64,000 bases of DNA from Variovorax terrae (GTDB lineage: Bacteria; Pseudomonadota; Gammaproteobacteria; Burkholderiales; Burkholderiaceae_C), in the NCBI RefSeq assembly GCF_022809125.1, contig NZ_JALGBI010000001.1, positions 3,162,001 through 3,226,000 on the forward strand, written 5' to 3'. Every line of letters begins with the position of its first letter. Position 1 is the stretch's first letter. A model generated the notes under the pieces. The model worked only from the letters and a program-made list of their open reading frames with translations. It did not search any database and had not been told where the DNA came from. Made by a program: the position numbers and the translations under genes. Shown here in pieces: positions 10,633-29,900 of this stretch.

Positions 10633-11892
10633 TTACCTCACCACATTCAGCGGCTTTCCTCCGAAAAAGAACGTCGTTTTTGCAAAGAGTTCATCATTCG
10701 CAAGAATAGTTGAAAGCTCCCAGTTGGTGTGATTTCCAATCTCAAGCCCTCGATATGTAACACGAGCACCAAGTCCCTGTGTTCCTAGTTGTGAAACGGC
10801 TGGAATTTCAGCGGCAGACGATATCACGCCGTTCAAATTGAACTTAATACCCTCCGAGCGCTGCATGAGGAACCGAATATTGGACGCGAGCGCCTCGTCG
10901 CTCGCGGGCATAGCAGATGCGAACATATTCAAGTTTCCACCACCATAGGAGTAGTAGATTTTTGCGTTCTGGCTGCTGGCAAAGTCGCGCAATGCCCATT
11001 GACCTTCAGTACGTGTAAGACCCAGCCCGAGGTCGAAGCCTTCCAAAACTGCTCTACGACCAGTAGTGCTAAGTCCCATATCGCGCAAGGCTCGTAGCTC
11101 CGACAGCTTAATGGGGGAAGCGCCTGCTGCAGCATCAAGTGCACCGGAACTTCCTGCACCGCCAGTTCTTGACATCATTGAAGCGCTTGTCACGTTCCTC
11201 GCTGTCCATGCGCCAGTCGCTGCGGCCTTGCCCAACGCGTAGCTGGTCCCGGACAGTAGTGTCAGGCTCGCTTCACCTACAGCTTGCATGCCGTAGACGA
11301 CTCCTCGGACATATTGACCTTGCGCAACGGCTTGCCGGGATTGCGTCGCAGCGCCATAGCCGGTCAACCCGCTGACAATTGCTCCCCCCAAAGTGCGCGC
11401 TCCATCGGTAACAGTTTTGGCAGCGCTCCCGAGTTTGTTGGCCCAGGACTGCTCCCCTTGCAGAACGCTCCAATACGGCTGATTCCAGCCGGCACTGAGG
11501 TCACTCGCAATCGACGGGGTCATGGTAACCATGGGCACGCTTCGGAAATCACCGAGTCCGTCCACCAAGTCATCCGGCCCCGAGGAATGAGCAATCACAA
11601 CGACCTCACGCAAAGTGCCCTGGCTCGCAGGAGCTCCCCATTTCACGCTTTCGTACTGATACACACCAGAGGTGGCGCCGTTTGCGACCAACACATCTTC
11701 GCTGGTATCAGATGGCTGCGGCACGTATGGCCGAGTGCCTAACCCTTCAATGGTTGCCCAGTTGTTTTTGGGTACATCGCCCAGAACGATGTGGTCACCG
11801 TTGGCATCCACGTACGGTTGCCTCATGGCACCCGCTCCTTGGCTGTTGCTCATGCTCTCCGCCAGAGAGCTACCGATAGCATTACCAAACGC
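10633..11892 (-). pseudogene. Displaced C-terminal tip (tip 2) of the giant Rhs protein
   Basis: 419 codons from the AFGNAIGSSLAESM border to the stop, without any Rhs core upstream. The open frame continues to 12114 into element DNA, but that part reads Cys/Arg-rich nonsense (out-of-frame element sequence). The tip has an Ala/Gly-rich spacer (GGAIVSGLTGYGAATQSRQA) and a C-terminal ~130-residue domain with YSYGGGNLNMFASAMPASDE and GNHTNWELSTIL that I cannot assign to a known toxin family. Base composition is visibly lower in GC than the Rhs core. Excising the element copies joins it in frame to the giant core, so it is most likely the original warhead. Confidence 0.7.
11885..11892. other. Junction J1: element end against tip 2 (att core ccaaacgc)
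   Basis: Left of the core the sequence is tip 2 coding DNA (gcatta ending at 11884). Right of it starts the element end (atttgccctgacgcaccg). The A at 11884 differs from G in J2/J3, placing the exchange at or right of 11885. Confidence 0.7.
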
Positions 11893-11925
11893 ATTTGCCC
11901 TGACGCACCGCCGTAGTCGCACACG

Positions 11926-11949
11926 CCCGCGCGCCAATGCTGGCGCGGG
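11926..11949. terminator. GC-rich hairpin near the element end
   Basis: cgcgcca/tggcgcg stem with an ATGC loop, extended by two pairs past a bulged G. It lies 35-60 bases from the attachment core and downstream of the minus-strand gene ending at 12035. There is no T-tract, so it may be a terminator or a recombination-related structure. The same structure is at 19942-19965. Confidence 0.4.
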
Positions 11950-12034
11950 CTTGCGGGCGTGAGAGGCGGCAGGCATGGGCGCGATTCTGCTGCAATTTCG
12001 CCGATACGCGGTTTTGCGCCTGCGGCGCTGGCGG

Positions 12035-12313
12035 CTAAGAGAGCAAGGGCGCGACGTAGGGATGCAACTCGTGCAGCAGTGTTCCAAGCGCTGTGATGAG
12101 CAGCACCACTTCATGCAGCGGGATCTTCCGTTTGGATTTTCGGTTCATGCGAAGAGCGTGCTCGATCACATCGAACTTTTCTTCCTGCGGTTTTTCCGAC
12201 GCGTGCTTGCGATTGGGCTTTCGATTCATGGTGGACCGGGCTCCTGAGGTGTTCGCCTCATTGGGCTCAATCTCATCGAACTTTTCCTCTTGCGGGTTTT
12301 CCGGCACACGCAC
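12035..12313 (-). CDS. Small element protein with a duplicated N-terminal motif and hydrophobic C-terminus
   Basis: A 92-residue protein if translated from GTG 12313. An ATG at 12229 with CAGGAG upstream would give a 64-residue form and has the better ribosome binding site. The longer frame shows two copies of a PQEEKFD-(E/V)-IE...MNRK unit, about 40 residues apart, visible at both protein and DNA level, which supports translation of the long form. The C-terminus (HEVVLLITALGTLLHELHPY) is a probable single membrane helix. Function unknown. It is the gene nearest the element end and lies on the far side of the integrase from the cargo. Confidence 0.5.
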   Translation of the reverse strand: MRVPENPQEEKFDEIEPNEANTSGARSTMNRKPNRKHASEKPQEEKFDVIEHALRMNRKSKRKIPLHEVVLLITALGTLLHELHPYVAPLLS

Positions 12314-12323
12314 GGCCGCCCGA

Positions 12324-12342
12324 GCGCGGGCGCAGCCCGCGC
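12324..12342. repeat. Perfect 8-bp palindrome with GCA triloop
   Basis: gcgcgggc-gca-gcccgcgc, between the two small genes. It belongs to a set of similar GCA-loop hairpins in the element's non-coding DNA. Copy B is at 20340-20358. Confidence 0.7.
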
Positions 12343-12354
12343 GGAGGGTTGATC

Positions 12355-12549
12355 TCAGCGAGGCGCGTAGCCGGCCAGCGCCAGGCCCGCGCGCACGGCC
12401 TCCCCGGCACTGCGCATCACATAGGCTTCCTGCTGGTCGACGGCCAGGCCACGGTAGTCATCGAGCCCGACGCGCTTGAGGAACTGAGCGAAGGCCTGCG
12501 CCTGCTCGTCGGTGAGGTACACGGTGATGGGGATGGACTCGTGCTGCAT
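12355..12549 (-). CDS. DUF7706-like small protein
   Basis: A 64-residue protein beginning MQHESIPITVYLTDEQAQAF. AAAGGA lies upstream of ATG 12549; the in-frame upstream extension to 12612 has no ribosome binding site. The pattern of short strand, then helix ending FLKRVGLDDYRGLAVDQQEA, then YVMRSAGEAVRAGLALAGYA matches small proteins I know as DUF7706, common on plasmids and genomic islands of beta- and gamma-proteobacteria. Size suggests a small DNA-binding or regulatory partner. Molecular role unknown. Confidence 0.65.
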   Translation of the reverse strand: MQHESIPITVYLTDEQAQAFAQFLKRVGLDDYRGLAVDQQEAYVMRSAGEAVRAGLALAGYAPR

Positions 12550-13061
12550 GAAGGGTTTCCTTTCGGGTTGATGAGTGATGTGTGAAGACTGGCCCGCAAG
12601 CGGGCACAGCACCCCCCACCCCTCATGAGCGCAACACGCGGCGTCGGCGCCAGGCTGTCAAGGCTGGCCGCAGGCCACCGCGCTTGGCGCGGCGCGCAGC
12701 GGCCTTGACTGACTGGCGACGGCGCCGCAGCCTCGCCCTTCAAGAGGGATGGGTGGTGAGGCACTGACCGGGCACGGCGCGCAGCGCCGTGCAGGCTGTT
12801 CGGCTGTTGGTCCCCGGCTGTTTGGGGGAGGGCTTGGCTGTCGGCGGCGCGGCGGCAAGCCCGCAGGGCTGAAGCGCGCCGCCGGCAGACAGGCCCGGGG
12901 TGGGCGGGCCTTGTTTTGTGATGACTGCGCGCAGAGCGCGCCTGACCAAAGCTCTTGCGGTTGCGGCTTGCCGCTACCGCACCGACCATGGATGTTCAGC
13001 GCGCGGTGAGCGCTACACCGCGTGAGCGCTGACCGCGCGCGCAGGCGACGCGGGGCGCCAG

Positions 13062-13144
13062 ACGTAACGTGTGTTGCGTCCAGCGCGGCCACCAAGCGCG
13101 CTTTGCGCGCGACTGGACGCGCTGGGTGCAACGCCACGTTACGT
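13062..13144. repeat. Large imperfect inverted repeat (83 bases)
   Basis: Outer arms acgtaacgtg (13062-13071) and cacgttacgt (13135-13144) pair perfectly. Inner arms around gcaac and cgcgctgg pair with two small mismatched patches. It could form a cruciform or long RNA hairpin. Copy B is at 21078-21160. Confidence 0.7.
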
Positions 13145-13178
13145 TGAATTGCGCAGCAATTCACCCCGCGTCGCCTGC

Positions 13179-13213
13179 CAGGTTGCAGCGGGCTCGATGC
13201 CCGATGCAACCTG
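13179..13213. repeat. 35-base near-perfect hairpin
   Basis: caggttgca pairs with tgcaacctg and cgggc with gcccg around a TCGAT loop. A single G/A mismatch interrupts 14 base pairs. Copy B is at 21195-21229. Confidence 0.75.
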
Positions 13214-13444
13214 CATCCCTGCTTCGCGCGAAGCGCCATGCTTTGTCTTAGCAGCGCTGGCCCGCCCGTCACGCCCGAGCGCGGCCACGGTATAGCGACG
13301 GCGCGCGGCTTGCCCGCATGCTGCTGCACTTCGCGCGCCAACCCGGCGCAAGCCGCGTGACGAGAGCGGTCCCTCGCCAGCAGCCGCTCTCGCGTGACGG
13401 CCGTGCGCAATGTAATTTACATGCGCGAGCCGCGCGCTCCAGCG

Positions 13445-13690
13445 TCAGCCGCGCAGGTCCAGCCGCGCTTGCAGGCCCGGTGCATGTCGCCCGAGCGCGG
13501 CCAGGATCGCCGGCGATGCGCCCGTGCAGCTCCACGTCCAGGACAGGCCGTCGACCTCGTGCAGCATCGTCGGGTGGGGATGGATTTCGATCGCGCCAAG
13601 CTCGCCGGCTCGCCCGATCGAGGCGGGATCGGCGATCACGGCATCGCGCAGCAGCGCACGAATCTCGTCACGGGTTTTCAGGTCTTTCAT
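13445..13690 (-). CDS. Hypothetical 81-residue element protein
   Basis: ATG 13690 with CGGAG seven bases upstream is preferred to the longer frame opening at 13717. The protein starts MKDLKTRDEIRALLRDAVIA, an amphipathic helix. It continues with a His/Pro-rich segment (AIEIHPHPTMLHEVDG) and WTWSCTGASPAILAALGRHA, and ends LDLRG. There is no membrane segment or signal peptide. It sits 65 bases downstream of the recombinase gene in the same orientation. In integrative elements small proteins here can be excisionases or plasmid-maintenance factors, but I see no helix-turn-helix. Function unknown. Confidence 0.6.
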   Translation of the reverse strand: MKDLKTRDEIRALLRDAVIADPASIGRAGELGAIEIHPHPTMLHEVDGLSWTWSCTGASPAILAALGRHAPGLQARLDLRG

Positions 13691-13755
13691 TTCAAGCTCC
13701 GGGGTTGATGGAGTCACCCATTAGGTCGTCACGACGGCCGCCGTGCGCATGCGCA

Positions 13756-14919
13756 TCAACTCTTTTCTTCTTCCTCGGCCTCGGCCTCCAGCGCCTCCAG
13801 AAGGTCCCGGGCGCTCGCATCGTGATCGAGCCAGGGCTCGGCCGCATCCAGCGTGAGCGGCGCCTCTTGCAGGCCGCCCTGGATGCGCGCGCGCGGGCGC
13901 AGCCTGGCTCCCGGGTGCGTGATCGCGTGCACCTGCGCGAGCTGGCGGATCGCCACCTGCGTGTAGATCTGCGTGGAGCTGATGTCCGCGTGTCCGAGCA
14001 TCGCCTGGATGTGCCGGATGTCCGCGCCTCCTTCGAGCATGAGCGTCGCCATCGTGTGGCGCCACAGGTGGCAGCCGCCGCGCTTGTTCACGCCGGCCGC
14101 CTGCACGTAGGTCGCGATGTGCGTGGACAGCCACGTGGGCGACAGCGGCACGCCTTCCCTGCCCAAGAAGAGCGTGGCGTCCTGATGGTTCCACACGAGC
14201 TGCGGCCGCGCCTCGTCGAGGTACAGCCGCACCCAGTGCGCCGCGCGCTCGCCCATCGGCACCATGCGGTCTTTCTGGCCCTTGCCCTGCCTCACGAGCA
14301 CCACGCGCCGATCGAACTCCATGTCCGTCACGGCCAGGCCGGCGATCTCCGCGCGGCGGATGCCCGTGGCGTAGAGCAGCTCCATCATCGCCCGGTCGCG
14401 CAGCCCGATCGGCGAGCCCGTGTCGGCCATCGCCAGCACCCGCTCGGCCTCCGCGAAGGTGAGCACCGCATGCGGCAAGCGCTTGATCTTGCGCGGCAGC
14501 TCGACGTCCGCCGCCGGGTTCGCCGGGATTTCGCCCACGCGCGTGAGCCACTTGAAGAAGCCGCGCAAGGGCGTGATCTTGGCGCGCTGGCTGGCTACCG
14601 ACAGCGGCTCGCCGTCGCGCTTTTTTCTGTAATGGAACAGCCAGCGCTGGTAGCGCTCGAGCACTTGCAGGCTCACTTGCTGCGGGTGCGTCACGCCGCG
14701 CTCGTCGGCCCAGATGATGAAGTCGCGCACGTAGCGCTCCACGTTCGCGCGGCCCATGCGCGTGTAGCCCTTCACGCCCAGATGCTCCAGGTAGCGGCGC
14801 ATCGCCGCGAACAGGCCTCGCAGGTCCCCGGGCGCGCCGGTCGCGCGTGCGTAGTCGCCCTGGCTGAACTGGCCGCGCGCAAGTGGCTTGTGCGGGTGAG
14901 CTTCGATGCCGCTTCGCAT
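13756..14919 (-). CDS. int: Tyrosine recombinase / integrase (XerD-like)
   Basis: A 387-residue phage-type integrase. Residues 30-125 form a SAM-like core-binding domain (GDLRGLFAAMRRYLEHLGVK onward). The catalytic domain shows all six expected residues: R188 in ATGIRRAEIAG, K213 in RQGKGQKDRM, H284-x-x-R287 in CHLWRHTM, H310 in MLGHAD and the nucleophile Y319 in STQIYTQ. An Asp/Glu-rich tail ends the protein. Its start is nine bases after the primase stop, so the two are co-transcribed. It is the obvious candidate to catalyse exchange at the ccaaacgc core. It does not lie at the extreme end of the element, about 1.9 kb from J1. Confidence 0.9.
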   Translation of the reverse strand: MRSGIEAHPHKPLARGQFSQGDYARATGAPGDLRGLFAAMRRYLEHLGVKGYTRMGRANVERYVRDFIIWADERGVTHPQQVSLQVLERYQRWLFHYRKKRDGEPLSVASQRAKITPLRGFFKWLTRVGEIPANPAADVELPRKIKRLPHAVLTFAEAERVLAMADTGSPIGLRDRAMMELLYATGIRRAEIAGLAVTDMEFDRRVVLVRQGKGQKDRMVPMGERAAHWVRLYLDEARPQLVWNHQDATLFLGREGVPLSPTWLSTHIATYVQAAGVNKRGGCHLWRHTMATLMLEGGADIRHIQAMLGHADISSTQIYTQVAIRQLAQVHAITHPGARLRPRARIQGGLQEAPLTLDAAEPWLDHDASARDLLEALEAEAEEEEKS

Positions 14920-14928
14920 GTGAGCTCC

Positions 14929-17922
14929 TTACGATGCAACGGCCGCCGCAGCCAAGGCGCCATCGCCCGCCAGGCGAGCATGGGCGCAGCTTGCGCGGCC
15001 ATCCAGCCACTCCAACTTGCCTCCAACATGGCCGCCACTTGAGGCCATCTTGAGCCCATCTTGCGCGCCCTCGACCCCAACTTGCGTTGGTCGTAGTGAT
15101 GGCCCGGTCTCCAGCGCTTCGGTCTCGATCAGCCCGCACAGCCTGCGCTCGTCGTCTTCGCCGCCGCCGTCCCACAGCAGCTCGTAGCTGAAGCTGTGGC
15201 CGCGGCTGCCCGCGTGCACGAGCAGGTATTCCATGTCGGCCAGGCGCGCGCAGTGCACCTTCAGCTGGTTGTCGCTCCAGCCGGTGGCGCCTCGCACGTC
15301 CCTGCGCGTGAAGCGCACCTGCGCGGGCGTGATGCGCGCATCGCTCGCGCGCTGGGCGACCATCGCCGCGATCAGGCGCAGGAGTTTTCTCGTTTGCGGC
15401 GGCATCTCATCGAGCGTGCGGCCCAGCACTTCGTGCGCCACCCGGTTCGCCAGCGCTATGTCGCCCTTGGTGACTTCGATGTAGTGCAGCTGCTGGCCCG
15501 CGTGCTCCACGCTCTTGACCTCGCGCTGGTGCTGGTGCACGAGCGCGATCGCGCGGATGAGCGTGAGGTACTTCATGTGGTCGCGCCGCGTGCGCGTCTT
15601 GTCCGCCAGGAAGGTGAGCTGGTCCGCATACGGGTTGACTACCGCCACGCTCGCGAGCAGCCGCTGCGCGTTGTGGTGCAGCGCCTGCACGCGCTCGCGG
15701 CCGGCCGATTGCAGCAGGCCTTCGAGCGTTTGCTTGTGCCGCTGCCTCGCGTGGATCGCGGCCGTCTGCTCGCGGCTTTCGTTCACCGAGAGGACCAGGC
15801 AGCGATTGAGCAGTTCTTCGTCCACGTCGATCGCCGTTGTGGTGAGCATCAGCATGACCGGGCCCTTGACGGTGTATTGCCTCGTTTGCAGGTTGCCCGT
15901 GGCTTCGTCCTTGGCCGTGCTCGCGATCGTGAGTTCACCGTCCGATTGCAAGAGCTTGAGCGCATACGCGGCTTGCCGCACGCCTTCTTCTTCGGCAATC
16001 GCCAGGATCTTGTGTTGCAGGTTGGTTTCGCCCAGGTAGTACAGGCTCTGGCCCGTCATCGCGCTGTAGCGGATGCGCTCTTCGGGCGGCACCAGGTTCA
16101 GCACCGCGTCCATGAGCGCGCTTTTGCCCGCTGCGCTCGTGGACTGGATCAGCACCGCGAGCGGCGCGTCGAGCTTCCTGCTCACGGCCGCCAGGTACGC
16201 GGCCACGAGGTTCATGTCCTCGCCCACCACACCCAGCGCATGCAGGTCCTGCACGATGCGCTGCATGAGGTCGGGTGAGCGCAGCAACTGCATCGCCTCA
16301 GCCTCTTCCTCGGCCGACAGGATCGGCGCCGTGGGGGTCTGTGGCTTGCGCGCCTGCGCCATCAGCTCGTCTTGCAGGCCTTCGAGCTTCATCAGCACCG
16401 CGCCCAGCTCGCGCTTGACAGCGTCTTCGCCCACGCCCAGCTCCACGCTCGCTTGCTTCACGAAGCTCGCGCGCGCCCTGGCCGCGTACACGTCCAGCGT
16501 GTCCACGAAGTAGCCGCCGCTCTTGTCGCAGCGCACCTGCACGTTCACCCGCATCGCCTCAGGCGTCGCGTTCTTCTTCCAGCCGCGAATGCGCCACGTG
16601 CATGCAGCCGCTTCGAGCTGCACTTCGTCGGGCAGCGCGCCAGCAGGCTCGTGCGTCGAATGCTGTGGCGCGCCGGGAGTTTTAGCGGCTAAGAAGGTGG
16701 CGGGTTCCGGGCCTTCTTCCTTCGCCGCGGTCTTCGCTGCGGGCGCGGCAGTGGGTGCGAGTTCAACCGGTTGAACCGAGGGCCGGCCGCTGCCGATCCA
16801 CTCGGCTTGCCGCACCACCAGCGCGAGCGCCTTCTCAGGCGGGCTCATCTTGCAGGCGAATTCGTTGGCGTCCATCCCCTTGGGGAACTGCACGCGCAGC
16901 ACTTCGAAGCCTTCGGCGATCAAGTGCGCCGCCAGCTCGCGCGCGCCTGCTTCGCCCGCCTCGTCGCGGTCATACGCGATCAGCACGCGCTCGATGTGGT
17001 TGGCTTTGAGCGCTTCGAGCATGTCTGCCGTGAAGCCGCTCGTGCCGTAGCTGGCCGTCACGTTCGTGTAGCCGCAGCTCCAGAAGCTCAGCGCGTCCAG
17101 GATCGCCTCGCACTGGATCACTTCGCGCTGGCCTTGCGGGCGCTGGCCCGCTTCCACGATGCCGGCGATGTTGAACACGCCGCGCGACCGCCGCCCTTCT
17201 TCGGGCTGGCGCAGGTACAGGTGCCGCGCCTGCTCGCGGCGCTTGTCGTCGTTGAGTTGACGGCCGTACACGTCCAGCACCTGGCCGCGCTCGTCCAGCA
17301 CGGGCACCACCAGGCACCCGTTGAAGTGTTCGTGGCCCGACTCGCGCAGGATGCCCACGCGCTGCAGGCGACCGCGTATGTCGGCGCCGGCCGCGCGGTT
17401 TTTTAGCGGCAGGCGCAGGCCCAGCGTGCGGTCGCCTACGCCCAGCTTGAAGGTCTCGATCAACTGCGGGTGCACCAGGCCGCGCACCTTGAGGTACGCG
17501 AGTGCTGCTTCGTTGTCCTTGAGCTGCTGGTGGTAGTAGTCCACCACTTGCGCGAGCAAGGCCTGCTCGTTCGCATCGAACGAGACCGGCGCGGCAAGCG
17601 CGCGCACGGTCGTCGCCTTGCGCGGCGCTCCCGCGGCTAAGGCCGGATCGGCTTTCAACAGCTCCACCGCATGCCGGAAGCTCACGCCACGGGCTTTCAT
17701 CACCCAGTCGATCGGACCGCCGCCTTCGTTGCAGCCGAAGCACCGCCACAGGTTCTTCGCGGGCGTGACCTTGAAGCTCGCGGTCTCCTCTTCGTGGAAC
17801 GGGCAGCGCGCGGCCAGGTCGCGGCCTACGCGCTTCAACTCGATCCCCGCCGCTTCCACCAGCCGCTGCACGCTCACTTCGCTTTTGATGCGTTCGATCT
17901 CGTCTTCGGGGATGCGCGCCAT
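14929..17922 (-). CDS. CHC2 zinc-finger / TOPRIM primase fused to a P-loop ATPase
   Basis: A 997-residue replication protein. The CHC2 zinc ligands are C40, H43, C61 and C64. A TOPRIM domain follows with E272/D276 (QCEAILDALSFW) and D318/D320 (AYDRDEAGEAG), the acidic residues that bind magnesium. After an Ala/Glu-rich linker (about 385-440) there is a P-loop SAAGKS at 596-601 in an ATPase domain, which suggests primase and helicase activities in one chain. The C-terminal part contains a winged-helix-like stretch (TRRDVRGATGWSDNQLKVHC). ATG 17922 has AAGGA seven bases upstream. It faces the XRE gene across a 128-bp divergent promoter region. It gives the element its own replication start after excision or during amplification. 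Confidence 0.88.
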   Translation of the reverse strand: MARIPEDEIERIKSEVSVQRLVEAAGIELKRVGRDLAARCPFHEEETASFKVTPAKNLWRCFGCNEGGGPIDWVMKARGVSFRHAVELLKADPALAAGAPRKATTVRALAAPVSFDANEQALLAQVVDYYHQQLKDNEAALAYLKVRGLVHPQLIETFKLGVGDRTLGLRLPLKNRAAGADIRGRLQRVGILRESGHEHFNGCLVVPVLDERGQVLDVYGRQLNDDKRREQARHLYLRQPEEGRRSRGVFNIAGIVEAGQRPQGQREVIQCEAILDALSFWSCGYTNVTASYGTSGFTADMLEALKANHIERVLIAYDRDEAGEAGARELAAHLIAEGFEVLRVQFPKGMDANEFACKMSPPEKALALVVRQAEWIGSGRPSVQPVELAPTAAPAAKTAAKEEGPEPATFLAAKTPGAPQHSTHEPAGALPDEVQLEAAACTWRIRGWKKNATPEAMRVNVQVRCDKSGGYFVDTLDVYAARARASFVKQASVELGVGEDAVKRELGAVLMKLEGLQDELMAQARKPQTPTAPILSAEEEAEAMQLLRSPDLMQRIVQDLHALGVVGEDMNLVAAYLAAVSRKLDAPLAVLIQSTSAAGKSALMDAVLNLVPPEERIRYSAMTGQSLYYLGETNLQHKILAIAEEEGVRQAAYALKLLQSDGELTIASTAKDEATGNLQTRQYTVKGPVMLMLTTTAIDVDEELLNRCLVLSVNESREQTAAIHARQRHKQTLEGLLQSAGRERVQALHHNAQRLLASVAVVNPYADQLTFLADKTRTRRDHMKYLTLIRAIALVHQHQREVKSVEHAGQQLHYIEVTKGDIALANRVAHEVLGRTLDEMPPQTRKLLRLIAAMVAQRASDARITPAQVRFTRRDVRGATGWSDNQLKVHCARLADMEYLLVHAGSRGHSFSYELLWDGGGEDDERRLCGLIETEALETGPSLRPTQVGVEGAQDGLKMASSGGHVGGKLEWLDGRASCAHARLAGDGALAAAAVAS
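16685..16693 (+). repeat. KorB-operator-like motif, one of four GCGGCTAAG sites per unit
   Basis: GCGGCTAAG occurs at 12031-12039, 16685-16693, 17633-17641 and 18516-18524, always on the plus strand, and again 8016 bases later in copy B. The fullest site here reads tttagcggctaag, 12 of 13 matches to the IncP KorB operator consensus TTTAGCSGCTAAA as I remember it. Confidence 0.5.
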
Positions 17923-17998
17923 CTGGGTGTCCTTGTCCGACCCCAGCGCGGGGTCATTGCTCGATTCGGGGGAGGAAATATTTTTCTCGGACGGACGT

Positions 17999-18015
17999 TA
18001 TCACGTTTCGTGTTA
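17999..18015. promoter_or_regulatory. Operator-like inverted repeat in the primase/XRE divergent promoter
   Basis: tatcacg-ttt-cgtgtta: arms match at six of seven positions around a TTT spacer, in the middle of the 128-bp region between two divergent starts. It is a natural binding site for the XRE-family regulator encoded next to it, which could repress both genes. Copy B is at 26015-26031. Confidence 0.55.
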
Positions 18016-18050
18016 TTCTCAAACGCGATTCCAGATCGGGGGTTTAAGGT

Positions 18051-18449
18051 ATGCACACCATCATTTCCTTGAGGTCCCTGCACGTGGCCATCAGCCAGGA
18101 CGAGCGCGAGTTCTTTGTGCAGCTGGGAGCCCGCGTCGCCCAGCTGCGCAAGCAAAGCGGTATCACCCAGGTCCAGCTCGCAGAAGCCCTGGAGCTCTCC
18201 CAAGCCGCCATCACCGCCTACGAGAGCGGCCAGCGCCGCGTGCCCGTCTCCATGCTGCCTGCCCTGGCCCGCATCCTGGGCGTGAGCGTCGAGGAGCTGA
18301 TCGGCGAGCAGCCTTCGCCCGCCGCTCGCAAGAGAGGGCCGGCTCCCAAGTTCCAGCAGCAGCTCGAGCGCATCAGCGCCCTGCCCAAGTCCAAGCAGAA
18401 GTTCGTCATGCAGGTGCTGGAGTCGGTCTTGCAGCAACAGGCCCGCTGA
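18051..18449 (+). CDS. XRE-family transcriptional regulator
   Basis: A 132-residue protein with a Cro/CI-type helix-turn-helix at about residues 22-80: LGARVAQLRKQSGITQVQLA, then LELSQAAITAYESGQRRVPV, then LARILGVSVEELIGE. A basic Pro-containing linker (RKRGPAPKF) leads to a C-terminal helix probably used for dimerisation. GTG at residue 12 (HVAISQDE) with GAGG upstream is an alternative start. It is transcribed away from the primase-integrase operon, the usual arrangement of an element repressor. It likely keeps excision and replication functions off by binding the inverted repeat at 17999-18015. Confidence 0.85.
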   Translation: MHTIISLRSLHVAISQDEREFFVQLGARVAQLRKQSGITQVQLAEALELSQAAITAYESGQRRVPVSMLPALARILGVSVEELIGEQPSPAARKRGPAPKFQQQLERISALPKSKQKFVMQVLESVLQQQAR

Positions 18450-18466
18450 TCGAGCGTTGAACGCAC

Positions 18467-18491
18467 CAAGGGCCGCATCTAGCGGCCCTTG
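18467..18491. terminator. Hairpin terminator between XRE and immunity genes
   Basis: caagggccgc pairs with gcggcccttg (10 bp) around a five-base loop, followed by tgttt. It separates the plus-strand regulator (stop 18449) from the convergent minus-strand immunity gene (stop 18548). Copy B is at 26483-26507. Confidence 0.75.
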
Positions 18492-18547
18492 TGTTTGATG
18501 ATCCCCCTGTCCTTAGCGGCTAAGGGGTGGGGAGAAGGGTTTCTTTT

Positions 18548-18874
18548 TCAAGCAGCAGGTTGGCGTCGTGCCAGCACATAGATCAACGTGATGGCCGCGC
18601 CCCACAGCAAACTATTCGCAATCAACGCCAGGAGGAGTCCCGCCCATCCGGGATCCGTAGTCATCACGAATCGACCCGGCGTCGTCAGAGCAGACAGCAG
18701 TGCCGGTATCACCGTTGCCTGGAAGTGATCGAACGTGGTCCAAGCGTCTTTGTCCTTGAAGCCAAGGCCCGTCACCCCAAGTGTCCAGATCCACAGGATC
18801 GCTGTGCACGCAGCATGCGCTGCGCTGAACATGAACCAGAGCTTGAGTCGAAGATTCGAAGCGATTTCAGCCAC
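18548..18874 (-). CDS. Membrane immunity-like protein for the Rhs lipase tip (copy A)
   Basis: A 108-residue integral membrane protein starting at GTG 18874 with GGGAGAGG seven bases upstream. Hydrophobic segments lie at about residues 11-32 (LWFMFSAAHAACTAILWIWT) and 75-102 (GWAGLLLALIANSLLWGAAI onward), with a weaker one between. It starts 20 bases after the lipase tip stop. Immunity proteins against envelope-acting lipase effectors are often membrane or periplasmic proteins, so topology and place fit. There is no family I can name. Downstream it converges with the XRE gene. Confidence 0.65.
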   Translation of the reverse strand: MAEIASNLRLKLWFMFSAAHAACTAILWIWTLGVTGLGFKDKDAWTTFDHFQATVIPALLSALTTPGRFVMTTDPGWAGLLLALIANSLLWGAAITLIYVLARRQPAA

Positions 18875-21706: not shown

Positions 21707-21771
21707 TTCAAGCTCCGGGGTTGATGGAGTCACCCATTAGGTCGTCACGACGGCCGCCGTGCGCATGCGCA

Positions 21772-22935
21772 TCAACTCTTTTCTTCTTCCTCGGCCTCGG
21801 CCTCCAGCGCCTCCAGAAGGTCCCGGGCGCTCGCATCGTGATCGAGCCAGGGCTCGGCCGCATCCAGCGTGAGCGGCGCCTCTTGCAGGCCGCCCTGGAT
21901 GCGCGCGCGCGGGCGCAGCCTGGCTCCCGGGTGCGTGATCGCGTGCACCTGCGCGAGCTGGCGGATCGCCACCTGCGTGTAGATCTGCGTGGAGCTGATG
22001 TCCGCGTGTCCGAGCATCGCCTGGATGTGCCGGATGTCCGCGCCTCCTTCGAGCATGAGCGTCGCCATCGTGTGGCGCCACAGGTGGCAGCCGCCGCGCT
22101 TGTTCACGCCGGCCGCCTGCACGTAGGTCGCGATGTGCGTGGACAGCCACGTGGGCGACAGCGGCACGCCTTCCCTGCCCAAGAAGAGCGTGGCGTCCTG
22201 ATGGTTCCACACGAGCTGCGGCCGCGCCTCGTCGAGGTACAGCCGCACCCAGTGCGCCGCGCGCTCGCCCATCGGCACCATGCGGTCTTTCTGGCCCTTG
22301 CCCTGCCTCACGAGCACCACGCGCCGATCGAACTCCATGTCCGTCACGGCCAGGCCGGCGATCTCCGCGCGGCGGATGCCCGTGGCGTAGAGCAGCTCCA
22401 TCATCGCCCGGTCGCGCAGCCCGATCGGCGAGCCCGTGTCGGCCATCGCCAGCACCCGCTCGGCCTCCGCGAAGGTGAGCACCGCATGCGGCAAGCGCTT
22501 GATCTTGCGCGGCAGCTCGACGTCCGCCGCCGGGTTCGCCGGGATTTCGCCCACGCGCGTGAGCCACTTGAAGAAGCCGCGCAAGGGCGTGATCTTGGCG
22601 CGCTGGCTGGCTACCGACAGCGGCTCGCCGTCGCGCTTTTTTCTGTAATGGAACAGCCAGCGCTGGTAGCGCTCGAGCACTTGCAGGCTCACTTGCTGCG
22701 GGTGCGTCACGCCGCGCTCGTCGGCCCAGATGATGAAGTCGCGCACGTAGCGCTCCACGTTCGCGCGGCCCATGCGCGTGTAGCCCTTCACGCCCAGATG
22801 CTCCAGGTAGCGGCGCATCGCCGCGAACAGGCCTCGCAGGTCCCCGGGCGCGCCGGTCGCGCGTGCGTAGTCGCCCTGGCTGAACTGGCCGCGCGCAAGT
22901 GGCTTGTGCGGGTGAGCTTCGATGCCGCTTCGCAT
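21772..22935 (-). CDS. int: Tyrosine recombinase, copy B
   Basis: Identical to the integrase at 13756-14919, with all catalytic residues (R188, K213, H284, R287, H310, Y319) intact. Both copies could therefore supply active recombinase. Confidence 0.9.
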   Translation of the reverse strand: MRSGIEAHPHKPLARGQFSQGDYARATGAPGDLRGLFAAMRRYLEHLGVKGYTRMGRANVERYVRDFIIWADERGVTHPQQVSLQVLERYQRWLFHYRKKRDGEPLSVASQRAKITPLRGFFKWLTRVGEIPANPAADVELPRKIKRLPHAVLTFAEAERVLAMADTGSPIGLRDRAMMELLYATGIRRAEIAGLAVTDMEFDRRVVLVRQGKGQKDRMVPMGERAAHWVRLYLDEARPQLVWNHQDATLFLGREGVPLSPTWLSTHIATYVQAAGVNKRGGCHLWRHTMATLMLEGGADIRHIQAMLGHADISSTQIYTQVAIRQLAQVHAITHPGARLRPRARIQGGLQEAPLTLDAAEPWLDHDASARDLLEALEAEAEEEEKS

Positions 22936-22944
22936 GTGAGCTCC

Positions 22945-25938
22945 TTACGATGCAACGGCCGCCGCAGCCAAGGCGCCATCGCCCGCCAGGCGAGCATGGG
23001 CGCAGCTTGCGCGGCCATCCAGCCACTCCAACTTGCCTCCAACATGGCCGCCACTTGAGGCCATCTTGAGCCCATCTTGCGCGCCCTCGACCCCAACTTG
23101 CGTTGGTCGTAGTGATGGCCCGGTCTCCAGCGCTTCGGTCTCGATCAGCCCGCACAGCCTGCGCTCGTCGTCTTCGCCGCCGCCGTCCCACAGCAGCTCG
23201 TAGCTGAAGCTGTGGCCGCGGCTGCCCGCGTGCACGAGCAGGTATTCCATGTCGGCCAGGCGCGCGCAGTGCACCTTCAGCTGGTTGTCGCTCCAGCCGG
23301 TGGCGCCTCGCACGTCCCTGCGCGTGAAGCGCACCTGCGCGGGCGTGATGCGCGCATCGCTCGCGCGCTGGGCGACCATCGCCGCGATCAGGCGCAGGAG
23401 TTTTCTCGTTTGCGGCGGCATCTCATCGAGCGTGCGGCCCAGCACTTCGTGCGCCACCCGGTTCGCCAGCGCTATGTCGCCCTTGGTGACTTCGATGTAG
23501 TGCAGCTGCTGGCCCGCGTGCTCCACGCTCTTGACCTCGCGCTGGTGCTGGTGCACGAGCGCGATCGCGCGGATGAGCGTGAGGTACTTCATGTGGTCGC
23601 GCCGCGTGCGCGTCTTGTCCGCCAGGAAGGTGAGCTGGTCCGCATACGGGTTGACTACCGCCACGCTCGCGAGCAGCCGCTGCGCGTTGTGGTGCAGCGC
23701 CTGCACGCGCTCGCGGCCGGCCGATTGCAGCAGGCCTTCGAGCGTTTGCTTGTGCCGCTGCCTCGCGTGGATCGCGGCCGTCTGCTCGCGGCTTTCGTTC
23801 ACCGAGAGGACCAGGCAGCGATTGAGCAGTTCTTCGTCCACGTCGATCGCCGTTGTGGTGAGCATCAGCATGACCGGGCCCTTGACGGTGTATTGCCTCG
23901 TTTGCAGGTTGCCCGTGGCTTCGTCCTTGGCCGTGCTCGCGATCGTGAGTTCACCGTCCGATTGCAAGAGCTTGAGCGCATACGCGGCTTGCCGCACGCC
24001 TTCTTCTTCGGCAATCGCCAGGATCTTGTGTTGCAGGTTGGTTTCGCCCAGGTAGTACAGGCTCTGGCCCGTCATCGCGCTGTAGCGGATGCGCTCTTCG
24101 GGCGGCACCAGGTTCAGCACCGCGTCCATGAGCGCGCTTTTGCCCGCTGCGCTCGTGGACTGGATCAGCACCGCGAGCGGCGCGTCGAGCTTCCTGCTCA
24201 CGGCCGCCAGGTACGCGGCCACGAGGTTCATGTCCTCGCCCACCACACCCAGCGCATGCAGGTCCTGCACGATGCGCTGCATGAGGTCGGGTGAGCGCAG
24301 CAACTGCATCGCCTCAGCCTCTTCCTCGGCCGACAGGATCGGCGCCGTGGGGGTCTGTGGCTTGCGCGCCTGCGCCATCAGCTCGTCTTGCAGGCCTTCG
24401 AGCTTCATCAGCACCGCGCCCAGCTCGCGCTTGACAGCGTCTTCGCCCACGCCCAGCTCCACGCTCGCTTGCTTCACGAAGCTCGCGCGCGCCCTGGCCG
24501 CGTACACGTCCAGCGTGTCCACGAAGTAGCCGCCGCTCTTGTCGCAGCGCACCTGCACGTTCACCCGCATCGCCTCAGGCGTCGCGTTCTTCTTCCAGCC
24601 GCGAATGCGCCACGTGCATGCAGCCGCTTCGAGCTGCACTTCGTCGGGCAGCGCGCCAGCAGGCTCGTGCGTCGAATGCTGTGGCGCGCCGGGAGTTTTA
24701 GCGGCTAAGAAGGTGGCGGGTTCCGGGCCTTCTTCCTTCGCCGCGGTCTTCGCTGCGGGCGCGGCAGTGGGTGCGAGTTCAACCGGTTGAACCGAGGGCC
24801 GGCCGCTGCCGATCCACTCGGCTTGCCGCACCACCAGCGCGAGCGCCTTCTCAGGCGGGCTCATCTTGCAGGCGAATTCGTTGGCGTCCATCCCCTTGGG
24901 GAACTGCACGCGCAGCACTTCGAAGCCTTCGGCGATCAAGTGCGCCGCCAGCTCGCGCGCGCCTGCTTCGCCCGCCTCGTCGCGGTCATACGCGATCAGC
25001 ACGCGCTCGATGTGGTTGGCTTTGAGCGCTTCGAGCATGTCTGCCGTGAAGCCGCTCGTGCCGTAGCTGGCCGTCACGTTCGTGTAGCCGCAGCTCCAGA
25101 AGCTCAGCGCGTCCAGGATCGCCTCGCACTGGATCACTTCGCGCTGGCCTTGCGGGCGCTGGCCCGCTTCCACGATGCCGGCGATGTTGAACACGCCGCG
25201 CGACCGCCGCCCTTCTTCGGGCTGGCGCAGGTACAGGTGCCGCGCCTGCTCGCGGCGCTTGTCGTCGTTGAGTTGACGGCCGTACACGTCCAGCACCTGG
25301 CCGCGCTCGTCCAGCACGGGCACCACCAGGCACCCGTTGAAGTGTTCGTGGCCCGACTCGCGCAGGATGCCCACGCGCTGCAGGCGACCGCGTATGTCGG
25401 CGCCGGCCGCGCGGTTTTTTAGCGGCAGGCGCAGGCCCAGCGTGCGGTCGCCTACGCCCAGCTTGAAGGTCTCGATCAACTGCGGGTGCACCAGGCCGCG
25501 CACCTTGAGGTACGCGAGTGCTGCTTCGTTGTCCTTGAGCTGCTGGTGGTAGTAGTCCACCACTTGCGCGAGCAAGGCCTGCTCGTTCGCATCGAACGAG
25601 ACCGGCGCGGCAAGCGCGCGCACGGTCGTCGCCTTGCGCGGCGCTCCCGCGGCTAAGGCCGGATCGGCTTTCAACAGCTCCACCGCATGCCGGAAGCTCA
25701 CGCCACGGGCTTTCATCACCCAGTCGATCGGACCGCCGCCTTCGTTGCAGCCGAAGCACCGCCACAGGTTCTTCGCGGGCGTGACCTTGAAGCTCGCGGT
25801 CTCCTCTTCGTGGAACGGGCAGCGCGCGGCCAGGTCGCGGCCTACGCGCTTCAACTCGATCCCCGCCGCTTCCACCAGCCGCTGCACGCTCACTTCGCTT
25901 TTGATGCGTTCGATCTCGTCTTCGGGGATGCGCGCCAT
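22945..25938 (-). CDS. CHC2/TOPRIM primase-ATPase, copy B
   Basis: Identical 997-residue product to 14929-17922, with zinc ligands, TOPRIM acids and P-loop intact. The nine-base gap to the integrase start is the same. Confidence 0.88.
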   Translation of the reverse strand: MARIPEDEIERIKSEVSVQRLVEAAGIELKRVGRDLAARCPFHEEETASFKVTPAKNLWRCFGCNEGGGPIDWVMKARGVSFRHAVELLKADPALAAGAPRKATTVRALAAPVSFDANEQALLAQVVDYYHQQLKDNEAALAYLKVRGLVHPQLIETFKLGVGDRTLGLRLPLKNRAAGADIRGRLQRVGILRESGHEHFNGCLVVPVLDERGQVLDVYGRQLNDDKRREQARHLYLRQPEEGRRSRGVFNIAGIVEAGQRPQGQREVIQCEAILDALSFWSCGYTNVTASYGTSGFTADMLEALKANHIERVLIAYDRDEAGEAGARELAAHLIAEGFEVLRVQFPKGMDANEFACKMSPPEKALALVVRQAEWIGSGRPSVQPVELAPTAAPAAKTAAKEEGPEPATFLAAKTPGAPQHSTHEPAGALPDEVQLEAAACTWRIRGWKKNATPEAMRVNVQVRCDKSGGYFVDTLDVYAARARASFVKQASVELGVGEDAVKRELGAVLMKLEGLQDELMAQARKPQTPTAPILSAEEEAEAMQLLRSPDLMQRIVQDLHALGVVGEDMNLVAAYLAAVSRKLDAPLAVLIQSTSAAGKSALMDAVLNLVPPEERIRYSAMTGQSLYYLGETNLQHKILAIAEEEGVRQAAYALKLLQSDGELTIASTAKDEATGNLQTRQYTVKGPVMLMLTTTAIDVDEELLNRCLVLSVNESREQTAAIHARQRHKQTLEGLLQSAGRERVQALHHNAQRLLASVAVVNPYADQLTFLADKTRTRRDHMKYLTLIRAIALVHQHQREVKSVEHAGQQLHYIEVTKGDIALANRVAHEVLGRTLDEMPPQTRKLLRLIAAMVAQRASDARITPAQVRFTRRDVRGATGWSDNQLKVHCARLADMEYLLVHAGSRGHSFSYELLWDGGGEDDERRLCGLIETEALETGPSLRPTQVGVEGAQDGLKMASSGGHVGGKLEWLDGRASCAHARLAGDGALAAAAVAS

Positions 25939-26066
25939 CTGGGTGTCCTTGTCCGACCCCAGCGCGGGGTCATTGCTCGATTCGGGGGAGGAAATATTTT
26001 TCTCGGACGGACGTTATCACGTTTCGTGTTATTCTCAAACGCGATTCCAGATCGGGGGTTTAAGGT

Positions 26067-26465
26067 ATGCACACCATCATTTCCTTGAGGTCCCTGCACG
26101 TGGCCATCAGCCAGGACGAGCGCGAGTTCTTTGTGCAGCTGGGAGCCCGCGTCGCCCAGCTGCGCAAGCAAAGCGGTATCACCCAGGTCCAGCTCGCAGA
26201 AGCCCTGGAGCTCTCCCAAGCCGCCATCACCGCCTACGAGAGCGGCCAGCGCCGCGTGCCCGTCTCCATGCTGCCTGCCCTGGCCCGCATCCTGGGCGTG
26301 AGCGTCGAGGAGCTGATCGGCGAGCAGCCTTCGCCCGCCGCTCGCAAGAGAGGGCCGGCTCCCAAGTTCCAGCAGCAGCTCGAGCGCATCAGCGCCCTGC
26401 CCAAGTCCAAGCAGAAGTTCGTCATGCAGGTGCTGGAGTCGGTCTTGCAGCAACAGGCCCGCTGA
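26067..26465 (+). CDS. XRE-family regulator, copy B
   Basis: Identical to the regulator at 18051-18449, with its operator-like repeat at 26015-26031 and terminator at 26483-26507. Repressor dosage is doubled relative to a single insertion. Confidence 0.85.
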   Translation: MHTIISLRSLHVAISQDEREFFVQLGARVAQLRKQSGITQVQLAEALELSQAAITAYESGQRRVPVSMLPALARILGVSVEELIGEQPSPAARKRGPAPKFQQQLERISALPKSKQKFVMQVLESVLQQQAR

Positions 26466-26563
26466 TCGAGCGTTGAACGCACCAAGGGCCGCATCTAGCG
26501 GCCCTTGTGTTTGATGATCCCCCTGTCCTTAGCGGCTAAGGGGTGGGGAGAAGGGTTTCTTTT

Positions 26564-26890
26564 TCAAGCAGCAGGTTGGCGTCGTGCCAGCACATAGATC
26601 AACGTGATGGCCGCGCCCCACAGCAAACTATTCGCAATCAACGCCAGGAGGAGTCCCGCCCATCCGGGATCCGTAGTCATCACGAATCGACCCGGCGTCG
26701 TCAGAGCAGACAGCAGTGCCGGTATCACCGTTGCCTGGAAGTGATCGAACGTGGTCCAAGCGTCTTTGTCCTTGAAGCCAAGGCCCGTCACCCCAAGTGT
26801 CCAGATCCACAGGATCGCTGTGCACGCAGCATGCGCTGCGCTGAACATGAACCAGAGCTTGAGTCGAAGATTCGAAGCGATTTCAGCCAC
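26564..26890 (-). CDS. Membrane immunity-like protein for the expressed lipase tip (copy B)
   Basis: Identical to 18548-18874. This copy lies 20 bases downstream of the stop of the full-length giant Rhs and is therefore in the functional toxin-immunity operon. Copy A gives a second dose from an uncertain promoter. Confidence 0.65.
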   Translation of the reverse strand: MAEIASNLRLKLWFMFSAAHAACTAILWIWTLGVTGLGFKDKDAWTTFDHFQATVIPALLSALTTPGRFVMTTDPGWAGLLLALIANSLLWGAAITLIYVLARRQPAA

Positions 26891-26910
26891 AGTACCTCTC
26901 CCTTAAAGCA

Positions 26911-29900
26911 TCAGCGCAATCCGCGCTGGTAAAGATATTGTGCAAGTGCGTCTCTCCTTACGGCCGCAGCCGGCGTGTCCGGCGCGTAGTAGAAGTGGCC
27001 CGCACCCTGAGACATCTGATTCTTCAATGTGAAGGCCGACCCGATGAGAGAGGCATCCGACATGCCCGCAGTAATCGGATCGCCCTTGTCGTTGAGGTTC
27101 ACGATGACGACGTTCTTGATGTTCGTCTCCGCTTGCAGCGTCTTCAAGTAGTCCGCGCTGATCGGCGAGCCAATGAGCACCAGGTTATCGACAGTTGTTC
27201 CGCCGCGTGCGTAGGTGACCGCCACTTGCGCAGCCACATTCGAACCATACGAGTAGCCGAGCAAGTTGAACTGACTTCCGCCAACCTGAGGCACGTTGTC
27301 CAGCAACGGCACGTAAGGCAACTCACCGAAGCGAGTGAGCTGTACACCAACCGTCGCATCTAGCCCGGTGCCATTCGAGTAAACGTCTCTGTTGGCAGGC
27401 GTGAGCGCGATGCCTTGCTTGTTGAAGGCGCGCACCATGTCTTTGATGTACGAACCATCCATGCCCGCGCCACCGAAGAACACATTGCCCTTGACGTTCT
27501 CGCCGGGCAGCAGCACGTTGTCCGGCACGGGAACATCGGTGGTGCCGCCAGTCGGGTTGCCCGCGATATCCATTTCCGGAATCTGCATCGTGCGACCAGG
27601 ACCACCAGCTGGTGGACGATTTCGATCGCCCGAAGCGGGCGTGAGCGGCGCTCTCATGTTGGTGAGCGGGCCAGTGCCAGCAACGACGATTACGTCGTCG
27701 GGATTCGCAGCTACAGGCGTGTTGTCATCAAACGCTTGCACCAGCTGGTCGTAAGCAGCAGAGGCATAGGGCGTGCTAAACGATGGGCCAGCGTTCGCGC
27801 TGTAGATCGGCAAGTTCATCGGATTCGATTGTGCCAAGCGTTGGGCATGGTCCTCGCCGAACGTCGTTGCAGGCGACGAACTCACCGAGCCCACGAGCCC
27901 TTGACCCAGCGCATTGCCAAACGCCCCGCCCTCAGCCAACACCCCCCTCTGCGTCGTCTGCCCTCGCAGGTTGTCAGCTACCGTGTTGCCGATGGCGTTG
28001 GCGATGATGCCCGGCAGCGCCTGCGCCACGCTGCCGCCGTGCACCGCCGCGTAGGCCAGCCCCCCGCCCAGGTTGCCCACCAACCTCCTGGCCTGCTCGC
28101 CCATCACGTCCTTGGACAGGTACTCGCCCATGTAGCCCTGGGCCGCCGAGGCCATCACGCCCTTCCAGTCAAAGCGCTGCTGCAGCCCCGTGGCCACTGC
28201 CAGGCCCTGGGTGATCGCGTTGCCCGCCGCCATGCGCAGCGCGGTGGAGTCGGCCAGGATGCCCGCTCCCTGCAGCCCGCCGGCCACCCCGCCGCCGAGG
28301 GCGCTCAGCGCCACGCCTTTCCAGTCAAAGGATTTCTGCACGCCCAGCGCCATGCCCGTGAGTTGGCTGGCCACCGAGGCCGCAATGCCGGTGACGGCTC
28401 CCGCCGTAGCGGTGACGAGGGCGCCGGGTGCCATCATGGCGCTGCCATACGCCGCCGCGCCGGCCGCTCCTCCGCTGCCACCGGTGACCGTTGCTGCGGC
28501 TGCGGCTTCTGTGGCGGCTGCCTGGGCTCCGATTTTTGCGAGGTATTCGAGGATTTGCGGGCCCGCGTAGACCACCACCACCACGGCCACCACGATCATG
28601 ATGATTTCGCCAAAGCCTCCGCAGTCGTCGTCGCCTCCGGCCGGCGGCGGGTTGGGGATGGTGGGGCTGGTGTCGCCGATGGCCTTGCCCGCGTCGTAGG
28701 GCCTGAAGGTCTGGCTGGTGTTGTGGATGTTGGTGACTTTGTTGGGGATCGCCAGCACGGTGTTGGCCGTCAGCGCCACCCCGGGCTGGGTGCCCTGCAG
28801 GCCGTTGGCGTCGGCGATCAGGTACCACAGGCTGGCGTCTCCCCACACCGAGCGTGCAATCGACTGCAGGCTCTCTCCTTCGCGCACCGTGTAGCTGGAG
28901 GCGCTGGAGCTGGGGTAGGTGGCGTTGATGGGCTGGTAGTTCTGGTCAAAGTCCGCGCTGGCCACCGGCGTGAAGTTCTTGTATTTGGAGTCCGGGTCGC
29001 TGGGCGCGTCCAGCGGCCGCGCCAGTTGCTGGGCGTAGTCTTCGCGCTCCACCCCGTCGTTGCCGACGTTGCCGATGCGCCGCCCGTCAAAGTAGTAGTA
29101 GCTTTGCGTGCGGTTCTTGGAGGCGCCGATCACGGTGCGGCTGGCCTGATCGAAGGTGCCTCCCATGAGTTCGTCTCGCTGCAGGATGTGGCCTTGCGCG
29201 TCGGTGTAGTAGCTGAAGCTGCGCCGCCCCGTGGGGTCGTAGGCGGTTTTCAGGTTGCCGTTGACGTCGTAGCCAAAGCGGGTGAAGCCCGGCGCCCATG
29301 GGCCGTTGACCTGGCCGTTGCTGGCCTGCACGTCGATGCCCGCCTGTTTGGCGTCGTCAAACCACAGGTAGCCATAGGAGGTGGTGATGGTGGTGGCGCT
29401 GCTGTCGGCCGAGTAGGTGACCGAGCCGCTGAGTGTGCCGTCGTTCAGGTAGCTGTAGCGGGTGCCGCTGTTTTTCAGGTCGTTGTGGTCGTCCAGCAGC
29501 TTGTTGTCTTTGTCCCAGGTGCGGCTCGAGCTGGAGCGGCCGGTTCCGTCCGCGTTCCATTCCTGGTACTGGATCACCCGGCCAGCCAGGTCGTTGGTGC
29601 GCACCGTGCGCTGGCCGGTGGACAGGGTCGTGGTGGTCAGCAGCCCGTTGGCGTCGTAGTCGTAGTTTTCCGCGTGCCCGTCGCTGGCGTAGATGGCGCG
29701 CCTGCGCTGGCCCGCCGAGTCGTATTCGATGCTCACGCCGTCGCCGCTGGTGCCGCGCGTGACCACGCCGCCCACCAGTTTCCCCATGGTCACCGTGAAG
29801 CGGTTCATGCTGTCGTAGGCGTAGTAGTAGTCCTGGTTGGCCTTGACGTTGTGCAGCGCATCGTAGTAGTTGGACACCACCCGGATCCGGTTGCCGTTGG

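Follow-up and report, generated by a model that had tools for sequence, protein, structure and literature searches.

How Rhs and CdiA toxins change their tips at one conserved point while keeping both the reading frame and the matching immunity has usually been answered with homologous recombination. A locus of Variovorax terrae raises this question for a giant rhs gene, the product of which is likely a bacterial weapon. The stretch of DNA that was analyzed, in the following called the window, comprises 64,000 nt (assembly GCF_022809125.1, contig NZ_JALGBI010000001.1, positions 3,162,001–3,226,000 of the forward strand), and coordinates without further specification are window positions. A preliminary description of the window had proposed that an integrative element uses the border between the Rhs core and the tip as its attachment site and brings along a new tip. 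The results make it very probable that a tandem integrative element is present at the core/tip border, that this border is its attachment site, that its own recombinase likely inserted it, and that an older tip has been left downstream.

Bases 11885–19908 are identical to the bases 8,016 positions further on. An exact repeat of 8,024 bp at an offset of 8,016 bp means that two perfect copies of a unit are arranged head to tail, namely copy A (11885–19900, minus strand) and copy B (19901–27916, minus strand), followed by a third 8-mer (27917–27924) that repeats the start of each copy. The identity ends to the base on both sides (11885–27924). The borders between element and downstream tip (J1, 11885–11892), between the two elements (J2, 19901–19908), and between core and element (J3, 27917–27924) are all the same 8-bp word, GCGTTTGG on the coding minus strand, which encodes Ala-Phe-Gly of an AFGNA motif. 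The word is in codon phase 0 in all three frames, i.e., in rhs at J3, in the tip copy at J2, and in the downstream tip at J1. The proposed 8,016-bp unit inside the giant rhs, with its borders at AFGNA, was thus recovered as an exact repeat with one 8-mer and one phase; the single copy was not, because two tandem copies are present. The reading frame is also unbroken through J3, as had been claimed: the rhs gene (26911–41652, minus strand, 4,913 amino acids), with its core at 27925–41652, is a single open frame that crosses J3 without a stop and now ends in the tip of the element. The bare 8-mer was rejected as evidence because it is not rare, occurring 9 times in the window versus 3.55 times expected, and 1 of 100 shuffled sequences contained as many. 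What is beyond chance is the 8,024-bp exact repeat together with its borders, not the 8-mer by itself. A search of the whole genome with the 8,016-bp unit returned these two copies as the only full-length matches, and two further matches were short and weak (235 bp at 68% and 32 bp at 91%).

Read away from the core, the unit carries a tip, a gene for 108 amino acids in the immunity position, an XRE-type regulator on the opposite strand, a primase, and a tyrosine recombinase. In copy B, which adjoins the core, the new tip (26911–27916, minus strand) continues the reading frame of the core; it is likely, but not proven to be, the lipase of the preliminary description: its alpha/beta-hydrolase matches in Pfam reach 21.7 bits, below the cut-off of 25.8, and a GYSYG elbow is present. 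Directly behind it lies the putative immunity gene (26564–26890, minus strand), which matched no Pfam family. The helix-turn-helix regulator (26067–26465, plus strand; PF13560, PF01381) is followed by the primase (22945–25938, minus strand) with a CHC2 zinc finger (PF01807, 81.6 bits) and a Toprim domain (PF13155, 65.2 bits). The term primase-ATPase had been used for this protein, and its first half was confirmed; the label ATPase is weak because the P-loop match reaches only 18.8 bits, with a cut-off of 27. The last gene encodes a XerC-like integrase (21772–22935, minus strand; PF00589, 147 bits), in which R188, H284, R287, H310, and Y319, presumably the catalytic residues of tyrosine recombinases, are invariant across 14 aligned integrases, including itself. 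Copy A contains the same genes, i.e., a tip (18895–19908, minus strand) that is severed from any core and has its open frame starting at 20130 within copy B, the putative immunity gene (18548–18874, minus strand), the regulator (18051–18449, plus strand), the primase (14929–17922, minus strand), and the integrase (13756–14919, minus strand). Beyond J1 stands the apparently displaced older tip (10633–11892, minus strand; AFGNAIGSSLAES at its start), in the codon phase of the core and without a Pfam family, with a gene for 113 amino acids behind it (10289–10630, minus strand; no Pfam family) that from its position is its putative immunity gene. For both cut-off tips, the in-frame ATG upstream comes from the end of an element (20130 and 12114).

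Natural pairs of sequences with and without an insert were found in two relatives. At the rhsE locus of E. coli, strain Ec-U10 is without and strain D6 is with an insert of 16,712 bp at DPIGL, and the difference is base-exact. On the core side, Ec-U10 1–10074 aligns to D6 up to position 14757 (99.5% over 10,075 aligned bp), and on the far side, Ec-U10 10001–19071 aligns to D6 from position 31396 (99.2% over 9,074 aligned bp). The far block begins exactly at GACCCGATAGGGCT, which codes for DPIGL. This word occurs exactly once in the Ec-U10 stretch, at the split, with a one-base variant 1 kb further, and in D6 it occurs at both ends of the insert and three times inside it. The own tip of Ec-U10 and the next gene (same protein accession) stand beyond the D6 insert. 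The attachment (att) words of D6 are spaced 848, 7,025, 1,808, 7,031, and 1,011 bp apart, and the insert consists of an 848-bp piece with a tip and Imm8 at the core, two autonomous units that both have a HYD1 tip, and remnants. The 848-bp piece (locus L044, reverse strand 14684–15532; L and G numbers are our labels for loci and genomes) has 14-bp att flanks and no integrase and occupies the expressed position; it is perhaps a cassette moved in trans. E. coli K-12 rhsE was rejected as an empty site, as it is a different rhs allele in which the border pattern was not found, and its place was taken by Ec-U10; three other candidates for the empty site, strains CUWW06, A25, and XJ6-3, were not used for a pair. 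At megablast sensitivity, the D6-type integrase was matched in 53 and the SCU-111 core-end query in 224 of 5,426 E. coli genomes, so that at least 171 of the 224 genomes with the core end are without a D6-type integrase, with the reservation that more distant integrases would escape megablast.

The second pair consists of the plasmids CP033467 of Enterobacter cloacae (without) and NZ_CP074172 of Enterobacter sp. JBIWA003 (with), and the site is VENN. The two plasmids share 6,013 bp at 99.7%, ending with the final base of TGTTGAGAATAAC, which codes for VENN, and 1,403 bp at 99.8%, beginning with the first base of this word. The insert of 15,370 bp is exactly 2 × 7,685 bp. In both natural pairs, the old tip is found beyond the insert. 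As judged from these alignments, insertion at the matching border was exact to the base and displaced the older tip, and the claim of a site-specific warhead element that displaces the old tip fits the pairs of the DPIGL and VENN types.

Relatives of the integrase (E ≤ 1e-60) were present in 11 of 299 genomes of the family and in 9 of 399 genomes of the order, the own genome included in both counts. Among them, one genome (G035) matches the expectation that related genomes carry AFGNA-bordered units with other tips. It contains a second, independent array, an exact tandem of an 8,817-bp unit with the 17-bp border GATGCATTTGGCAATGC (DAFGNA), in which the tip differs from that of the window and the downstream tip carries a Tox-ART-HYD1 domain. 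The tandem array of another genome (G148), whose unit measures 11,647 bp, shows one mismatch over 11,670 bp; its 23-bp border between Rhs reading frames codes for TQSDPIGL, a motif of ordinary Rhs cores. An Enterobacter plasmid carries two exact copies of a 7,685-bp unit in tandem, with a 13-bp border that codes for VENN. In this array (L041, 15738 and 23423), the open frame of the downstream VENN tip begins with a hydrophobic, leader-like stretch that is supplied by the element end. Repeats at element ends were also found in Massilia (a pair of 14 bp coding for SDPIG), in Pseudomonas HMWF032 (14 bp coding for VGPKG, in the downstream tip), and in a two-recombinase element of Oligoflexia that lies at a contig end (L089, 446 and 8753; 14 bp coding for RYYDP of the Rhs core). 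A primase with two tandem recombinases was seen in elements of Oligoflexia, Elusimicrobia, and Verrucomicrobia (L089, L073, L079, L090). Relatives on plasmids have a similar set of a helix-turn-helix gene, a primase, and XerC, with toxin- or immunity-like neighbors, and adjoin FG-GAP, TpsA2, FHA, and hemagglutinin/CdiA-type genes. On a Leptospira plasmid (L039), relatives of primase and integrase lie behind a large gene annotated as peptidase M23, which is perhaps a further target type. Read from the coded motifs, the relatives are located at VENN in CdiA, at DPIGL in Rhs, and at AFGNA in giant Rhs; two further targets, G(A/P)KG in TpsA2-type proteins and RYYDP in Rhs, are less certain.

For a broader survey, one genome per species was scanned with an alignment of the 14 integrases, and the best 80 matches yielded 79 loci. 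A primase was present within 1.5 kb upstream of 57 of the 68 integrases that scored above 300 bits with the integrase profile, and of 6 of the 53 with lower scores (four two-recombinase loci). Within at most 3 kb downstream of the primase-linked integrases, a strict border motif was found in 24 and a weak sign of Rhs in 9 of the 52 cases in which 1 kb or more of sequence was available, and 11 more primase-linked integrases had too little downstream sequence to be included; the respective numbers for low-scoring integrases without primase were 0 strict and 2 weak of 45. These counts take in tandem copies, reference loci, and a VENN match at L051 that looks like chance, and because of the tandem copies and reference loci, the rows are not independent. 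The C-terminal Rhs profile matched at 31 of 61 element loci versus 1 of 42 control XerC/D loci; the training loci L021, L042, L043, L044, and L089 are among the 61, and without them the count is 26 of 56. Sixteen profile matches in 12 element loci start at positions 32–42, with DPIG at about position 39, and the remaining matches start at positions 1–26 and represent full cores or tips with core homology that reaches further up. The NCBIfam Rhs core model matched 4 of 10 proteins from downstream of an integrase that were submitted (L056, L062, L063, L074), which belong to Binatota, Opitutales, Stieleria, and Pirellulaceae; as three of these four loci are metagenome bins, misbinning is possible. 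A control integrase at L077 (295 bits, no primase) is flanked on either side by an Rhs core end and is perhaps a decayed or different member. A search for homologues of the giant Rhs in the family gave matches in 15 of 399 genomes, one of them being the own genome. AFGN[AS] stands directly before divergent tips (frames above 250 amino acids) in 13 of 19 non-own giant Rhs loci and was not found by our pattern in the other 6 of 19. To judge from these frames, AFGN[AS] provides a constant address where the conserved body ends.

The target motif follows the tree of the recombinases. On a tree of 54 integrases, of which 28 had a target label (26 of the 80 rows were dropped as near-copies, fragments, or long branches), the target class required 3 changes, which is the minimum; the mean of shuffled labels was 8.7, and 0 of 200 shuffles were as low. 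The tree of all 80 rows also required 3 changes, versus a shuffled mean of 14.3, and again 0 of 200 were as low. VENN (4 rows, support 100/100), AFGNA (3 rows, 100/100), and the two-partner-secretion (TPS) class (2 rows, 99/91) each formed a single clade, and the Rhs-DPIG class (19 rows) required 2 changes. The labels were derived from motifs and annotation, some by eye (L061, which is NCBIfam negative, and the L036 rows via FHA neighbors); labelled rows are few, and kinship of the hosts adds to the clustering of the target classes.

We propose that the recombinase would exchange strands inside the border between a circular form of the element and the toxin gene. A second copy could arise from the integration of another circle or from unequal exchange, and repeated rounds would stack units. 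The expressed weapon would then be a fusion of the core with the closest tip, and the gene that travels along would provide immunity. The primase may aid replication of the circle, and the XRE protein may control excision. Because the delivery protein cannot tolerate changes in it, the conserved border motif would be used as attB. The best reading of the relatives is a widespread family of integrative elements that carry replacement warheads and use toxin borders as attachment sites.

Several results weigh against this interpretation. In 19 of the 52 primase-linked integrases, our patterns found no border motif, and of 11 high-scoring integrases without an upstream primase, 3 had a strict motif (DPIG), 6 had none, and 2 had too short a sequence. 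The NCBIfam Rhs core was not found in the downstream frames of L034, L035, L036 (two places), L052, and L061. The TPS class, which has few rows and the least sure border, was matched by 13 of 500 shuffles when analyzed alone. Inverted repeats were good at a Lonsdalea border (arms of 8 bp separated by 6 bp; equalled by 1 of 200 shuffles) and at one G035 border (equalled by 2 of 200), weak at the other borders examined, and absent at the borders of the window; being mostly weak, they were not used as proof of a recombinase core site. The preliminary description had held that the integrase unit at an unrelated site or with other boundaries would speak against specificity for rhs, and here G035 gives a divided answer: its core-side border (L020, 19637; the third border, equivalent to J3) has the exact motif and adjoins a gene that we read as sugar-acid-kinase-like, not an rhs core, and no match to the rhs gene of the window was found in 56 kb of G035. 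Either a later deletion or an ectopic site could account for this flank. For the AFGNA type, no pair with and without insert was found, in a same-genus search that covered just the genome of the window. Two small circular plasmids, of Shigella (8,758 bp) and Lonsdalea (11,289 bp), carry the gene set with Rhs-type tips; these records could be collapsed tandem arrays instead of circles and were therefore not used as proof of excision. Among 8,000 candidates scored, at least 4,625 proteins are related to this integrase at E ≤ 1e-60, and ordinary XerC/D may be among them. The longest contig measured 6.9–9.7 kb, about one unit, in 15 of the first 37 non-own integrase relatives among the 120 matches listed, and contigs of this size are expected from circles as well as from collapsed tandem arrays. 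Strand exchange and excision by the element's own enzyme are what we infer.

That the tips were exchanged by ordinary displacement, i.e., by homologous recombination between conserved core sequences with the recombinase genes as mere passengers, is the model given for tip exchange in the parts of PMC3150448 and PMC3482391 considered here, and it fits a core fragment of the window (7448–10258), the only place with long homology (88 and 95% identity over two 300-bp stretches). At J1–J3, however, the shared sequence is only 8 bp, and in the natural pairs it is 13 and 14 bp; moreover, complete units that include recombinase and primase are inserted, and the motif can be predicted from the branch of the recombinase, so that this explanation is improbable. 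Equally hard to credit, if not a little harder, is a general mobile element unrelated to toxins that landed in rhs with the tip as a chance passenger. The non-rhs flank of G035 and the 19 of 52 integrases without a motif would agree with it, but in the window, G035, G148, Enterobacter, and E. coli, the unit starts inside the tip frame at a coding motif, and the enrichment of the Rhs core at element loci over controls (31 of 61 versus 1 of 42) leaves the VENN, AFGNA, and TPS cases still to be added.

Short direct repeats at both ends might also be target-site duplications made by transposition, but their length varies (8, 13, 14, 17, and 23 bp), the repeat belongs to the element's own tip code, and the element encodes a tyrosine recombinase with the invariant R, H, R, H, and Y, so that hardly any weight is left for this explanation. 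A different doubt concerns the array itself, because copies as perfectly identical as those of the window could be an assembly artefact of one real copy. This is unlikely, though it deserves more attention than the preceding explanations: tandem units occur in other assemblies, and some of them are not identical. The repeat blocks of E. coli D6 are broken by differences, two units in Paraburkholderia have different tips, and different tips also follow the two integrases of Photorhabdus (L071). A single copy would, in addition, leave the interpretation as a warhead-carrying integrative element unchanged.

With a slight leaning in its favor, we go further and suggest that VENN, DPxGL, AFGNA, G(A/P)KG, and perhaps RYYDP may be attachment sites of one ancient superfamily of warhead elements across several phyla, each recombinase branch being fitted to one border. 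Orphan-tip arrays would then be piles that this recombination has deposited and through which it can still read, a reversible last-in-first-out magazine in which excision of the top unit re-arms an older warhead and cassettes without integrase ride in trans.

The tyrosine-recombinase integrative element is a known machine, and features of this class were found, i.e., a self-encoded recombinase with conserved R, H, R, H, and Y, short direct repeats on either side of the element (8 bp in the window, 17 bp in G035, 23 bp in G148, 13 bp in Enterobacter, 14 bp in E. coli), and empty sites in related genomes for the DPIGL and VENN types. Relaxase or transfer genes were absent among the unit's open reading frames given to Pfam, and no search aimed at relaxases was made. 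What is new is the logic of target and cargo. Some phages and islands integrate at the 3′ end of a gene and bring a copy of this 3′ end with them, so that the gene product is restored; here, too, attB is inside a gene and the frame continues into the element, but the product receives a different end. Integron cassettes also involve a tyrosine recombinase and arrays with the newest unit beside the expressed position. Integrons, however, have one platform integrase and cassettes without integrase, whereas each autonomous unit in the window has its own recombinase, and the role of attB is taken by a coding motif within the target gene. In shufflons, Rci exchanges the C-terminal end of a protein by site-specific recombination as well, but by inverting resident segments, while the present units are direct repeats and appear as insertions. 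The recombinase-associated acquired interbacterial defence clusters reportedly described by Ross in 2019 combine a tyrosine recombinase with immunity genes; they are said to contain immunity only, without in-frame replacement of a warhead.

No description of such an element was found in the open-licence literature of PubMed Central, and to this extent its announcement as undescribed stands; that integrases or XerC/D genes lie beside orphan tips and immunity arrays had already been noted. In the parts considered here, Poole 2011 (PMC3150448) and Zhang 2012 (PMC3482391) explain tip exchange by recombination between conserved sequences, and the latter mentions XerC/D genes beside some polyimmunity loci. 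The orphan CdiA-CT/CdiI and Rhs-CT modules of that literature resemble the present case in that pairs of tip and immunity are exchanged at VENN or the Rhs core end and displaced pairs are kept downstream; in the same parts, no self-encoded site-specific element is invoked. Ruhe 2016 (PMC4927057) reports integrase and transposase genes among the orphan pairs of E. coli cdi islands and suggests site-specific recombination, and the portion consulted describes orphan arrays with integrase genes between them, but not a unit, borders, an attachment site, or a pair with and without insert. For bee gut bacteria, the corresponding portion of Steele 2017 (PMC5727410) describes Rhs-associated integrases, proposes them as an aid to capture, and leaves their role open; these integrases near Rhs genes are likened to ours by description, not by sequence comparison. 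The element is not described in the consulted parts of PMC11278526 (contact-dependent inhibition in Proteus mirabilis), PMC10210955 (type VI secretion system of Neisseria), and PMC9765294 (Vibrio). The association of integrases with orphan tips has thus been glimpsed before, and the unit, its attachment sites, and the proof by sequences with and without insert look new.

If the interpretation is true, warhead exchange becomes a trait of mobile elements for which an enzyme, a site, and a reaction that can be tested are at hand, and a single event delivers a toxin together with the matching antidote. The clean units of tip and immunity in many orphan arrays and the strong conservation of border motifs would also be explained, and a primase and XerC beside a border motif would be a marker for finding new antibacterial tips. 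The relatives in E. coli and Enterobacter, with and without inserts, suggest a dedicated rearming machine.

Both kinds of exchange may have left traces in the window. The fragment at 7448–10258 is a partial second rhs core with a third tip, and its border reads VFGNG. Its resemblance to the main core fits classic tip displacement through homologous recombination, next to the element-borne form.

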